DNA from: Chitinivibrionales bacterium
GTDB taxonomy: Bacteria > Fibrobacterota > Chitinivibrionia > Chitinivibrionales > FEN-1185
Length of the DNA: 64,000 nt
Direction of reading: 5' to 3'
NCBI GenBank assembly: GCA_035516255.1
Contig: DATJAL010000014.1
Span: 1-64,000 of the forward strand
In this document: positions 39,680 to 61,624 of the stretch, piece after piece
How positions within the stretch are numbered: position 1 is the first letter of the stretch
How the letters are laid out: each line of letters opens with the position of its first letter
Notes under the pieces: generated by a model
What the model was told of the DNA's origin: nothing
The model's database searches: none
What the model saw: only the letters and a program-made list of their open reading frames with translations
Position numbers and translations under genes: made by a program

Positions 39680-42124
39680 TTACCGTACTACCGGCACTGT
39701 CACGGCCTGTTCCAATCCATCGCATTCCATTCTGATAAATAAAATCCCCTTTGCCTTCTCGGGCGGCTTGATCATGATGCTTTCCGATCGAATGTCCTGA
39801 TCAATCCTGGCGATCAACCTGCCCGACGGGTCAAAAATGCTAATCCTGCCATGGCCCGCCTGGTCGACGCGACGCCCGAAATCAATGATCAATCCATCAT
39901 GGATGGTTTTAACGGAGACCCTTCGAATCGATTGCCTTGTCAATAAAGAGCCCGCGCCGGTCTGGTACCTTGCAAACCCCGTCACCACGCTTTTGCCCGC
40001 ATCAAGTCCGCCGGGGAGGACAAATGAAATCGCGGTTGTTGACGTTTGCGCATTCCACGTCTCGCCGCTGCCGTACAGCCTTGCATTTACCGATACCAGC
40101 ACCGTACACGCTGCGTTGACCGGGTTGGACACGGAAATTTCAACCGAATCCTTGGTTTCCCGCACAAACATCGCGCAAGGACTGCCGGCTGAAACGGTAA
40201 GAGAATCTGAAAGTTTTATGCCGCCGGCAGCGTAAAAGACAATGCCGGTTGCCGCGAGGCTTTCATTGCGGACAGCCTGCAGCGTCGTGGTGTTCGCAAG
40301 CACCTTGCAGGGAACGCCGTTTTTGACGTACGCGTCAAGGCTGTCAACGCCGATGCCCGGAATCACCACGTACGCGCATGAAGCGTTGGCCGGCGCAGTA
40401 CCGTGATCGAACCAGAGGCTGAAAACCGTGTCGGTTATTGCCGCGGCCGATTCGCTGGCATTGATGCCCAGCCACGACCCGGTCTGCAGGTTGTTCTGAA
40501 TCGTCAAGCTGTCGGAAGGCGCCAGTATTGCGTAGCCGACGCTGTCGTGATGCACCCACGAGTCGGCCCCGATCCTGCGGCCGCCGAGGCCGAGGGCCGA
40601 GCGGCCGGCGGCGGAACCTATCGTCACCTGTCCTTTTGTAAAGCACTGGTTCACCGACGTCCATACCGGTTTCCCGGACGCGGCGGCGATCCCCGACGCG
40701 AGCGCGACAATCTCCTTGTCAAAAAAGAACCAGGACTTTTTAGCGGTGAGCCCGTCGCGGGAATAATCCAAGGCGGCCGCACCGAACGTCCCGTTGGACA
40801 CGCCGCCAACGAAGTCGGTGGCACCGGTGTAGGACCCGGGCATGGCCGGCGGCATGGTGTCGTGCCTGCAGGTGACGCCGGGCAGCCTTGTCCAGTCCCA
40901 GATCGGGAAAATATTGAAGTATTCCAGCCCGGTGCGGTAGAAAAACGTCACGCCGTCGCCGAGGTAATAGCTCTTGAGCCCTTCGCTGTTGACCAGTTCC
41001 GCCCCGCGCGTGCGTTTCGAACACATCTTGACAGACGCCACGTACCCTTGGCGCTGGTGGGCCATGTAATCGGAGCACCAAAAATGGCGATTGCCCGAGA
41101 GCCATGTTTGCGGCTGGGCCGGCCAGGCCGAAAGGCGCGCGGAAAACGCGGCATATTCGTTGCTCCGCGCCGCGGTCGCAAGCGTCATGCTGGCGCAGAT
41201 CGTGATGAAGTCGCTTTTCTTGTTCGGGCTGTTGGGCCGCGTTATCTCCCTGCCGCACGCGCTGTGATCCATGGTGGTGCCGCGCAGCATCCATTGCTGT
41301 CCGTCAAGAATATAATGTGACAGCAGGTCGAGCCGGTCCTGCGGGAAGGCAAACTGGGTGCCGCGGCAGAGCTGGGCCATGTCGGAGGCGTCGGAGGAGA
41401 ATCCCATGCCGTAGCCGCCCGAATAGAGCTGCGGGCCGTGCTGGTGAAAGCTCCAGTCCTCCTGGATATTGTCCGCCGATTGCACCGTGATCCTGATCTC
41501 ATTGACAATTGCGTCAACCGCGGCGGTCACGAGCGACGCGGTGTCCACGATGCACCCGCGCCAGACGGTGATCTTGGAAACCCAGACAAGGTTCTCGCCG
41601 GTCATGGTGGAATGCACCGCCCACGATCGCGCCATGATGATATTGCCGCTGCCGACCTGCGCCGCCGACAGCTGGTCCTTCATGAGCAGCATGGCCGGCC
41701 CCAGCGAAAGCTGGGTGCCGATCTGGTTCCACCACCAGTTGGGCGATTGCGGGTCGAGCCGGACCCACGCGTCGAAGGCGAGCAGGAAGCCGTTCTTGAC
41801 AGAAGCGGAATCGTGCAGCGCGTGGGCGGGGTTGCGAAACGCCTGCGCCATGGTCTGCATGCGCGACAGGTGCGTGATGGGCGCCCACGTCGCCCGGCCG
41901 CTGTCGGCGTAATTGATGTCGGGCCACGTGCCGTCGGGCCCAAGCGAGGCCAGCCACTGCCGGATCGTCGCGGCAGAGCCCCCGCTTCCCTGGAAACTTG
42001 CATACAGTCGCGCGGTGAGCGTGTCGAGGTCCTGGGCGGAGATGGATGCCGCGGATAAAAATATTCCCAAGATCAATAGTGTTGGATAGCGGCAGCACGT
42101 GAAGATTTTTGCACGGGTGGACAT
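39680..42124 (-). CDS. Secreted polysaccharide lyase, PL8-like
   Basis: 814 residues from the ATG at 42124 (AAAGGAAAG upstream), with a signal peptide ending near ASISA. Residues about 20-360 form the alpha/alpha-toroid of PL8 lyases (hyaluronate, chondroitin or xanthan lyase): NWWWNQIGTQLSLGPAMLLM, MTGENLVWVSKITVWRG, WSFHQHGPQLYSGGYGMGF. The Asn, His and Tyr in the latter two segments fit the catalytic triad. Beta-sandwich domains follow. The last ~75 residues (GRISIFDPSGRLIARID) resemble a C-terminal Ig-like tail. It cleaves uronic-acid polysaccharides by elimination; exact substrate unknown. Confidence 0.85.
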   Translation of the reverse strand: MSTRAKIFTCCRYPTLLILGIFLSAASISAQDLDTLTARLYASFQGSGGSAATIRQWLASLGPDGTWPDINYADSGRATWAPITHLSRMQTMAQAFRNPAHALHDSASVKNGFLLAFDAWVRLDPQSPNWWWNQIGTQLSLGPAMLLMKDQLSAAQVGSGNIIMARSWAVHSTMTGENLVWVSKITVWRGCIVDTASLVTAAVDAIVNEIRITVQSADNIQEDWSFHQHGPQLYSGGYGMGFSSDASDMAQLCRGTQFAFPQDRLDLLSHYILDGQQWMLRGTTMDHSACGREITRPNSPNKKSDFITICASMTLATAARSNEYAAFSARLSAWPAQPQTWLSGNRHFWCSDYMAHQRQGYVASVKMCSKRTRGAELVNSEGLKSYYLGDGVTFFYRTGLEYFNIFPIWDWTRLPGVTCRHDTMPPAMPGSYTGATDFVGGVSNGTFGAAALDYSRDGLTAKKSWFFFDKEIVALASGIAAASGKPVWTSVNQCFTKGQVTIGSAAGRSALGLGGRRIGADSWVHHDSVGYAILAPSDSLTIQNNLQTGSWLGINASESAAAITDTVFSLWFDHGTAPANASCAYVVIPGIGVDSLDAYVKNGVPCKVLANTTTLQAVRNESLAATGIVFYAAGGIKLSDSLTVSAGSPCAMFVRETKDSVEISVSNPVNAACTVLVSVNARLYGSGETWNAQTSTTAISFVLPGGLDAGKSVVTGFARYQTGAGSLLTRQSIRRVSVKTIHDGLIIDFGRRVDQAGHGRISIFDPSGRLIARIDQDIRSESIMIKPPEKAKGILFIRMECDGLEQAVTVPVVR

Positions 42125-42824
42125 GGTTTTCTTTCCTTTATGGAAAGGCACAACCGGGGGCCGATTCGCTCATGAGGGTGATGATTGGAATATAAGCCAT
42201 TTTGCGGTTTTTGTCAAAAATACCAGTGCAGACAAGTCTTCCGCCCCGTTTTAAAAAAAAAGTTGTATCATCGATATTTTACAAGGAGATAAACGACGGC
42301 GAAATCGATTTCGTCGACAATTTCCTTTAAATGCCTTATAATTACTATCGAACGGATGGCATTTCCCGTGGCCTTGGGGGGAAAGTCCAGGGTAGCATGG
42401 GAATGTCTCGTTAGCCTTGCCGGTTGTTGCCTCCTCGCTTTAACCGGCAGGGCATTATTATTTTCATAATATAGCGGATCCGGGCAAGCGGCCCGCTTAC
42501 CCGCGAATACCCAACATGGACCCATGATGCGGGTTCCACCAAACAGCCTGATTATTTTCAAGCTAAGAAAATACGTTTTGTCAATGAAACCGATTCCGTT
42601 GCACTATTATTGTCGGAATAGTAAAATGATCTCGGCACTGGTTCAAAATTGAATCCTTGAGTGACCGCATTGTCACTTGTTCCTTAAGGTAAAGTCCTTG
42701 CGCGTCGCGCGTTTCGTCATATCGTTTGTCTTATCCTCATTCGGCGGGTCTTTCAATGCGCAAGGAGGAATAAATAAAGTATATTGACAATTACAAGGGT
42801 TGCTGTATAAAAAAAGGAGGACTC
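42125..42824. other. Structured intergenic region between PL8 gene and pilin
   Basis: About 700 bases without a convincing gene. It holds an imperfect inverted repeat at 42283-42327 (AAGGA/TTCCTT arms around CGAAATCGATTTCG), a chain of hairpins at 42358-42534, a small hairpin GTGAC-CGCATT-GTCAC at 42661-42676 and a long-range stem CCTTGCGC (42696-42703) with GCGCAAGG (42758-42765) just before the pilin. A 97-codon minus-strand frame here is rejected. Confidence 0.5.
42358..42534. ncRNA. Candidate structured RNA (strand uncertain)
   Basis: Consecutive stems: CATTTCCC (42360-42367) with GGGAATG (42399-42405); CCTTGG (42372-42377) with CCAGGG (42387-42392); GCCTTGCCGGTT (42414-42425) with AACCGGCAGGGC (42442-42453); CGGGCAAGC (42481-42489) with GCTTACCCG (42495-42503); and ACCCAACATGG with CCATGATGCGGGT ending at 42534. 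On the plus strand the third loop exposes CCTCCTC, complementary to Shine-Dalgarno sequences. I do not recognise a known riboswitch or RNA family. Confidence 0.35.
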
Positions 42825-43253
42825 ATGTTCCGTAGGGGTAGCAGTACCAAAGGATTTACGCTCGTTGAACTGGTGGTGGTTATCGTTATCGTCGGCATCC
42901 TTGCCGCGGTTGCCATTCCCAAATTCCTGGACGCGTCGGCCAAGGCCAAGGCATCGGAATTTCCCACGGTGCTGAACGCGGTGTATACGGGTGAAATGGC
43001 GTATCAAACCGATAGGGGCACGTACGCCTCCACATTGACGAACCTGAAGGACTCCGCCTGCGTTGACGTACCGGGAAGCTCGCAATGGTTCAATTACCAG
43101 ATTCCTGCTGCAACCACCACGTCTTTTCGCGCCACAGGGAAGGTAAGAACCGCTTTCGGTTCCACAACGACGTCTGATACCGCCGCTATCGATAATACAA
43201 ATTCAAAATGGGCATCGCCCAGTTTAGCGAGGTATTGTCCGAATTGGAAATGA
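42825..43253 (+). CDS. Type IV pilin-like protein
   Basis: 142 residues with a short basic prepilin leader, cleavage after Gly10 in STKGFTLVELVVVIVIVG, Glu at +5, then a hydrophobic N-terminal helix (ILAAVAIPKFLDASAKAKA). This is the PilA/GspG class-III signal. The C-terminal domain has a Cys pair (SACVD, RYCPN) that may close a D-loop. AAGGAGG lies four bases upstream of the ATG. No assembly genes are adjacent, so it is an orphan major or minor pilin, or a pseudopilin. It could serve motility, adhesion or DNA uptake. Confidence 0.9.
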   Translation: MFRRGSSTKGFTLVELVVVIVIVGILAAVAIPKFLDASAKAKASEFPTVLNAVYTGEMAYQTDRGTYASTLTNLKDSACVDVPGSSQWFNYQIPAATTTSFRATGKVRTAFGSTTTSDTAAIDNTNSKWASPSLARYCPNWK

Positions 43254-53934: not shown

Positions 53935-54392
53935 GAGATAAAAGAATAAATAATAATGATCTGGTGGGGAGAGGTCTCTCCCCTGGGGTGCAGCTTCCTC
54001 CCGCCGGAAATTTTCCCAGGTTTTGTATCAGCGGGAGGTGATCTGCACCCACACCCCTCTCAGCAGGGGCTTCGCCCCCGCAACGCCCCCAGGAAGCAAC
54101 GGGAAGCCCCGGGTGCTTCGATGGAGGTGAAAGTGCGTGTTGATAAATCGGAAGTTTGCCAACGCGTTAGGCAGGACTGGAGGCCGCGCTGGAGCGCGGT
54201 GCCGCCCGGACCCGCCGCAAAGCGGCATTGGGCCGTGGCGGCCCGAGCCGAAGGACGACGACCCTTGTGACCCTTGGAAATCCCTGACGAGGGAGAAGCA
54301 CCCGAAGGGGTGGACCGGAAGGAGGGCCGACCCGGAGCGTAGCGGAGGGGAACGCCCATTTTATATCTTATTGTAAATACTAAATCCAGAAT
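53935..54392. other. Repeat-filled gap before tssE
   Basis: About 458 bases almost wholly occupied by a composite of motifs B and A (53956-54366) in minus orientation. No gene or promoter is evident; open frames across it are products of its GC-rich repeat structure. Confidence 0.6.
53956..54366 (-). repeat. Composite dispersed repeat, motifs B then A
   Basis: Read on the minus strand: GGGCGTTCCCCTCCG, GGGTCGGCCCTCCTTCCGGT, CTTCGGCTCGGGCCGCC, GGGCGGCACCGCGCTCCAGC and CTAACGCGTTGG (motif B), then a long hairpin GGGTGCAGATCACCTCCCGC with GCGGGAGGAAGCTGCACCCC (motif A), then AGGGGAGAGACC. The same pieces recur at 45.2, 57.7, 61.4, 61.6 and 63.9 kb. Confidence 0.75.
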
Positions 54393-61371: not shown

Positions 61372-61475
61372 GGCGGGTGAGGTCTCCACCTGGGGTGCGG
61401 CTTCCGCCGCTTAGCTTGACAAAAACCAAAATGACGCGGCGGCGATCTGCTCCCACACCCCCTTTTTGGCGCCGG
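61372..61475 (-). repeat. Dispersed repeat, motif A (minus orientation)
   Basis: On the minus strand GGGGTGTGGGAGCAGATC, GCGGCGGAAGCCGCACCCC and AGGTGGAGACCTCACC follow the motif A order, with a stem between GTGGGAGC/GCCGCACC-type arms and GCCGCCGCG/AGCGGCGG. Confidence 0.6.
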
Positions 61476-61624
61476 TACTCAGTGATTCGCAGACTTAAGT
61501 GGTGGCTGGCGATACGATCGCCGCAGCGCGAGTTTTACATGGCGGAAGAAGAGATTGTTGCATCGGTAGAGGCGACCTGCGAATCTTATTCTAATCGATT
61601 CTTATAGTGATAATCTGCAATACG

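Follow-up and report, generated by a model that had tools for sequence, protein, structure and literature searches.

Positions 42671–42733 (+ strand) of the window, by which we mean the whole 64,000-nt stretch of DNA that was analysed, are one copy of a dispersed, structured mobile unit of about 64 nt. The original prediction had described the region 42283–42765 as a single chain of hairpins. This region is bounded by a long minus-strand reading frame (39680–42151, start at 42151) and a type IV pilin-like gene (42825–43253, + strand, 142 aa; PF07963 N_methyl, E 1.5e-7). We found that it is a composite of three separate things: a palindrome with a promoter at 42297–42342, a two-hairpin stretch at 42349–42464, and the dispersed unit, which sits in a host repeat at 42649–42759. 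It seems probable that the region as a whole is explained by a mobile unit inserted into a host repeat beside the pilin gene, together with a separate promoter and possibly a small RNA.

Inverted repeats were counted when they had at least seven Watson–Crick pairs, at most one mismatch and a loop of 3–20 nt, and did not overlap one another. The region 42283–42765 contained six of them, compared with 2.2 in dinucleotide shuffles, and six or more were reached in 1 of 200 shuffles; the excess is therefore genuine, although the figure of at least seven was generous. All six were confined to 42283–42648, where none of the 200 shuffles reached that number. The folding energies agreed in direction (minimum free energy z of −3.6 for 42283–42765 and −4.0 for 42283–42648), whereas 42649–42765 alone folded at chance level (z −1.05) and had no inverted repeat at this strictness. 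Five consecutive repeats had been placed at 42358–42534; only two were recovered there, a number reached by 46 of 200 shuffles, but the fold of this stretch was indeed better than chance (z −3.3). Three short hairpins, at 42481–42503 (nine Watson–Crick pairs), 42552–42574 and 42591–42621 (seven each), had no copy that we could find elsewhere. A long-range stem had also been proposed to close just before the pilin gene. The underlying 9-bp match (42695–42703 with 42758–42766) is present, but a closing stem is not supported: its 5′ arm overlaps an inner hairpin at 42699–42711, and 42699–42703 was assigned to that hairpin because this is the pairing shown by the repeat family. When the region was searched against its own genome (G000) and 40 relatives, the only recurrent parts were the palindrome at 42296–42318 and a segment at about 42650–42738.

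The second of these segments contains the mobile unit. A covariance model, R1, matched 42650–42740 with E 2.5e-17 in the own genome, a second model, R2, also matched, and the boundaries of the 63-nt window copy were set by the family rule. In the own genome R1 gave 43 matches at E ≤ 1, 40 of them at E ≤ 1e-3, and in the same-genus genome G001 it gave 51 at E ≤ 0.1. With R2, which was built from 79 matches, and a limit of E ≤ 0.01, 21 of the 167 phylum genomes searched proved to carry the family, and these represent 17 of the 40 genera. The exact unit pattern occurred seven times in 84,980 species genomes, a set that perhaps does not include the own genome, and all seven stretches were in the same-genus genome. 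With one unit copy as query no match was found in plasmids and phages, and an Rfam search of two unit loci returned no known family, ribozymes included. Neither a description of the family nor its three consensus strings were found in the literature searched, which covered Fibrobacteres repeats, nested palindromic elements and small dispersed repeats.

The unit has a 5′ tail TGTCAYTTCRTTCC, followed by an outer helix, conserved internal loops and an inner hairpin, and its 3′ end coincides with the foot of the outer helix. In the window copy, 42685–42691 pairs with 42727–42733, the latter strand ending exactly at the 3′ end of the unit, and within the inner hairpin 42699–42703 pairs with 42707–42711. 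Some unpaired bases are invariant in the aligned copies. The 79 R1 matches, less two duplicates from overlapping loci, gave 77 near copies, and 70 of these could be delimited by pattern; nine of the 70 were badly delimited and were set aside, and two of the nine were then re-delimited by hand, so that 63 were retained. Near copies are 58–68 nt long with a median of 64 nt, and the median of the distant copies is 68 nt.

The fold is supported by compensatory changes. In an alignment of 10 copies, seven double-changed cells were counted against 1.8 after shuffling, none of 500 shuffles reached the observed pairing, and four of the seven pairs of the outer helix were double-changed, a result limited by the fact that the helices had been chosen by eye from compensatory changes. 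RNAalifold, run unaided on the alignment, produced a different fold with little covariation. Among the 77 distinct near copies (alignment A2, whose input of 30 + 10 + 2 loci and stretches of G001 and G000 comprised 69 of those collected, with the weaker G001 matches partly included) there were 151 double-changed cells compared with 52, and the pairs held in 93.0% of cells compared with 78.2% after shuffling. For the 37 distinct distant copies (A3) the numbers were 106 and 29, and all 12 pairs changed on both sides somewhere. The 10-copy alignment is the cleaner test of covariation, because A2 and A3 were fitted to the model and it was not.

Additionally, the flanks of the delimited copies were joined and searched for in the sequence collected, and empty sites were obtained for 34 of the 63 copies (36 matches in all, of which L030 and L032 were tandem self-matches and were left uncounted). 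For 28 of these 34 copies the best-fitting boundaries moved by the same amount on both sides, which means that exactly the unit is missing at those sites; in the other six they differed by one or two bases. Seven copies had a single solution no more than one base from the drawn ends, so that a target duplication could not be accommodated. Of 100 copies (63 near and 37 distant), 80 had a T on either side, and tandem units abutted directly. The unit enters in one piece, with precise ends, between two T's (T^T), and no duplication of the target site was seen. The same results decide against the idea that the unit and its hosts are decaying hairpin noise, in which copies resemble one another through palindrome convergence. 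Most copies are stronger than that of the window, and the chance-level fold of the segment around the latter would suit such a reading, but the 40 matches at E ≤ 1e-3, the invariance of some unpaired bases and the compensatory changes speak against it and the empty sites contradict it, so that we give it hardly any credence. A decayed element had been one of the three identities first proposed for the region, next to a leader and a small RNA. It is the element that is borne out, by copies, covariation and empty sites, yet decay alone does not describe its family, which is well preserved.

Copies were found in several kinds of flank, many of them palindromic repeats themselves, and such repeats, and occasionally genes, serve as the targets. 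In the window the unit splits the palindromic host repeat TTGAATCC ... GGGTCTTTCAAT (42649–42759, + strand). Its similarity to G001 repeats is weak (best E 0.011): the left arm is 81% identical over 26 nt to repeats there, both occupied and unoccupied, and the right end GGGTCTTTCAAT is identical at 12 of 12 positions to one of them. An empty counterpart of the window copy itself was not found in the joined-flank search. Three unoccupied host repeats also occur in the window, at 54031–54089, 54164–54214 and 61405–61490 (vacant sites near 54034, 54164 and 61433), and the same repeats are filled by units elsewhere in the genome. One class of host repeats (flanks of L019, L025, L026 and L020) starts with GCGTTAGGC-like ends, which may resemble the cores of integron attC sites.

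Only seven of the 77 near copies overlap a scored reading frame, and nearly all copies lie between genes. The next gene downstream was on the same strand in 30 cases, on the opposite strand in 29 and unassigned in 18, and since there is no orientation tie to the next gene, the family is not a leader element; a role of the unit as cis-regulator of the following gene was rejected on the same counts. GC skew around the copies revealed no clear strand preference (permutation p 0.056, 0.98 and 0.20).

The few insertions in genes bear on another explanation, that the unit works as a transcribed RNA, in the manner of a ribozyme or an intron or as a segment bypassed by the ribosome, and is mobile through RNA. 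One IS91-type transposase gene, in G001, is interrupted by a unit, with the zinc-binding domain before it and Y2_Tnp after it, and an uninterrupted relative of this gene is present in G007. Units are also located at the same place in relic IS91-type transposase genes of G025 (L045) and G011 (L062), which belong to two families of the order, and possibly in another gene of G036. Together with the conserved internal loops, the covarying stems and G–U pairs on one strand, these positions speak for such an RNA. However, the transposase genes of G025 and G011 have further breaks or are truncated, nearly all copies are intergenic and none of the known ribozyme families matched, which makes this explanation very improbable. 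An intron or a bypassed segment was considered in its own right by testing the joined flanks for reading frames, and was rejected: few genes are involved, and those of G025 and G011 are relics.

The preferred reading, a DNA element inserted as a block, raises the matter of what moves it. An autonomous version was sought with the 5′ and 3′ halves of the unit in G000 and G001, and six 5′-half matches outside the R1 matches look like chance. The unit lacks a gene, terminal repeats and a target duplication, and its fold has conserved unpaired parts. The simplest reading is a non-autonomous element whose mover would be an enzyme that recognises the folded single strand. Insertion without duplication fits the Y1 class of transposases, and one may ask whether the unit is a REP of the GTAG type moved by a RAYT-like Y1 transposase. 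In 54 of the 63 near copies the inner hairpin is preceded by GTAG or GTAA (29 and 25 copies, respectively), and RAYT-like Y1 proteins are encoded in the own and the same-genus genomes. In GTAG REPs, however, the motif stands at the end of a palindrome of 20–50 nt, whereas in the unit it stands inside and not at an end. Of the 63 near copies 29 have it, and of the 37 distant ones only 7 do; the unit is also longer and two-tiered. Y1_Tnp genes were sought in 10 genomes and units were looked for around 30 of the resulting loci: at E ≤ 0.1 there was no unit up to 1.5 kb from any of them, and one locus had a match at E 0.55. Furthermore, the repeats next to one Y1 gene of G001 are of another kind than the unit. 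On balance we regard the assignment to GTAG REPs as rather unlikely. The surroundings of that G001 gene (L100 2500–3700) consist of a different hairpin-repeat family on both sides, and a gap-broken partial unit lies about 0.5 kb away.

Among known small repeats, bacterial MITEs are likewise gene-free, dispersed and non-autonomous, but they have terminal inverted repeats and a target-site duplication, whereas the unit begins with TGTCA... and finishes with ...GCCYTN, two ends that do not form an inverted repeat, and duplication of its target was not seen. The small dispersed repeats (SDRs) of cyanobacteria reportedly occur within genes and within other repeats and have no known transposase. They are described as about 20 bp long (PMC2884548) and as very small, dispersed and considered mobile (PMC2884548, PMC3116915). 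The unit resembles them in being very small and dispersed and in its clean insertions in genes and repeats, a likeness in the way it works; it differs in its length of about 64 nt, in its two-tier covarying fold with conserved loops and in belonging to another phylum. With GTAG REPs and REPtrons (PMC3733652, PMC8266576) it shares a dispersed, mostly intergenic and often tandem or clustered occurrence and, in many near copies, a GTAG before the hairpin; it is longer, its GTAG is internal and rare in distant copies, and it is not flanked by a Y1 transposase, whereas GTAG REPs are often, but not always, associated with a RAYT gene. REPINs are similar in size and also non-autonomous (71 bp between the invariant 16-mers of a GI doublet, with precise loss reported in reads; PMC3116915), but a REPIN comprises two inverted REPs around a spacer, whereas the unit consists of a single, asymmetric fold and a 5′ tail. 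The family is best filed with the known kind of very small dispersed repeats.

The promoter region upstream of the unit is a separate matter. The palindrome CGGCGAAATCGATTTCGTCG at 42297–42316 overlaps the −35 element of a promoter-like sequence on the + strand, TCGACA-17-TATAAT (42314–42342, 11 of 12 consensus positions), and would be a candidate operator. A consensus promoter scan found two sites compared with 1.1 expected at its threshold. Allowing one mismatch, GCGAAATCGATTTCGTCGA has six copies in the own genome, where the reversed control has none, and it was absent from 13 other genomes searched. Five of the six palindrome sites have a −10 hexamer (four TATAAT, one TATACT) at a spacing of exactly 17 nt from the −35 that the palindrome overlaps; the background rate is 0.0051 per position. 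It seems likely, from this arrangement, that the palindrome acts as an operator and that transcription starts at about 42349. The other palindrome promoters precede a response-regulator-like gene, a PAS kinase-like gene and a frame beside an HD-domain response regulator; HD and receiver domains were identified by profile search, and the response-regulator-like and PAS kinase-like calls were made by eye. The presence of the palindrome at five promoters suggests a small regulon of the pilin region and signalling genes (L214, L216, L217). A second palindrome promoter (L213 1501–2017) is followed, after about 430 nt, by a unit that points the same way, an arrangement also present in the window at a distance of 372 nt; the L213 stretch in between is unrelated in sequence to that of the window and looks non-coding. 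An Rfam search of the other palindrome loci returned nothing above chance.

RNA started at about 42349 would contain two long hairpins followed by a T-rich end. The 116 nt of 42349–42464 (+ strand) have a minimum free energy of −56.8 and a z of −5.31, a value attained in none of 200 shuffles, the ends of the stretch having been picked with the fold in view. The second hairpin (42414–42453, + strand, 11 Watson–Crick pairs) carries the CCTCCTC loop noticed earlier and is followed by ATTATTATTTT, which gives it a terminator-like appearance; it was not reported by the terminator scan because its loop exceeds the length that the scan allows. It is plausible that 42349–42464 is a small RNA of about 116 nt or the start of a long pilin leader. 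When relatives were sought with a single-sequence model in 167 genomes, only the query itself and two chance-level matches (E 0.04 and 0.07) were obtained. As there is neither a convincing relative nor an upstream region shared with the pilin paralogs, it is the promoter, with its recurrent palindrome, and the fold that argue for a small RNA or leader. GGA motifs were not enriched in the presumed leader (10 against 7.1 expected; 156 of 1000 shuffles reached 10). The earlier statement that no known riboswitch fits was upheld: Rfam gave no match at the gathering threshold in the whole window, the best score in the region being 19.7 bits against a threshold of 45, and relaxed E-values also revealed nothing above chance.

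We also considered whether the whole stretch could be a cis-acting, riboswitch-like leader of the pilin gene, in which the CCTCCTC loop can mask the ribosome-binding site. The promoter-like sequence with its recurrent palindrome and the strong folds would suit a leader. The proposed pairing of the loop with the AAGGAGG of the pilin gene is confined to the 6 bp of AGGAGG, and about 7% of model sequences as long as the region would contain CCTCCT by chance. Moreover, the pilin-proximal part is a copy of a mobile repeat, no Rfam family matched, and the upstream regions of the three pilin paralogs of the own genome, all of which were compared, are unrelated to that of the window pilin. We therefore consider such a leader improbable. 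A structure conserved with the pilin gene found no support, given the unrelated upstreams of the three paralogs compared, the lack of an Rfam family and the lack of any pilin match in G001 at E ≤ 1e-10. Two of the paralogs (L209, G000:C2; L210, G000:C30) share with each other an upstream stretch of about 89 nt, AGCGGAGC..GCTCRGGAARGGAGG, that is 72% identical; it is promoter-like and leader-like, it is absent upstream of the window pilin, and Rfam found no match in the paralog upstreams, this stretch included.

For the genomes concerned, our results are a caution that hairpin-rich upstream regions can be nested mobile repeats and not riboswitches. Tentatively, and with some doubt, one may go further and see in the family a class of minimal mobile element: a folded single strand of about 64 nt, with no gene and no terminal repeats, moved by a dedicated enzyme and inserted at T^T without duplication, in at least 17 genera of one phylum, whose compensatory changes would reflect a fold that is selected, presumably for mobility. 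How very small bacterial repeats move is mostly obscure; here the exact boundaries, the empty sites, the covarying fold and the target rule would allow the enzyme to be looked for in a concrete experiment.
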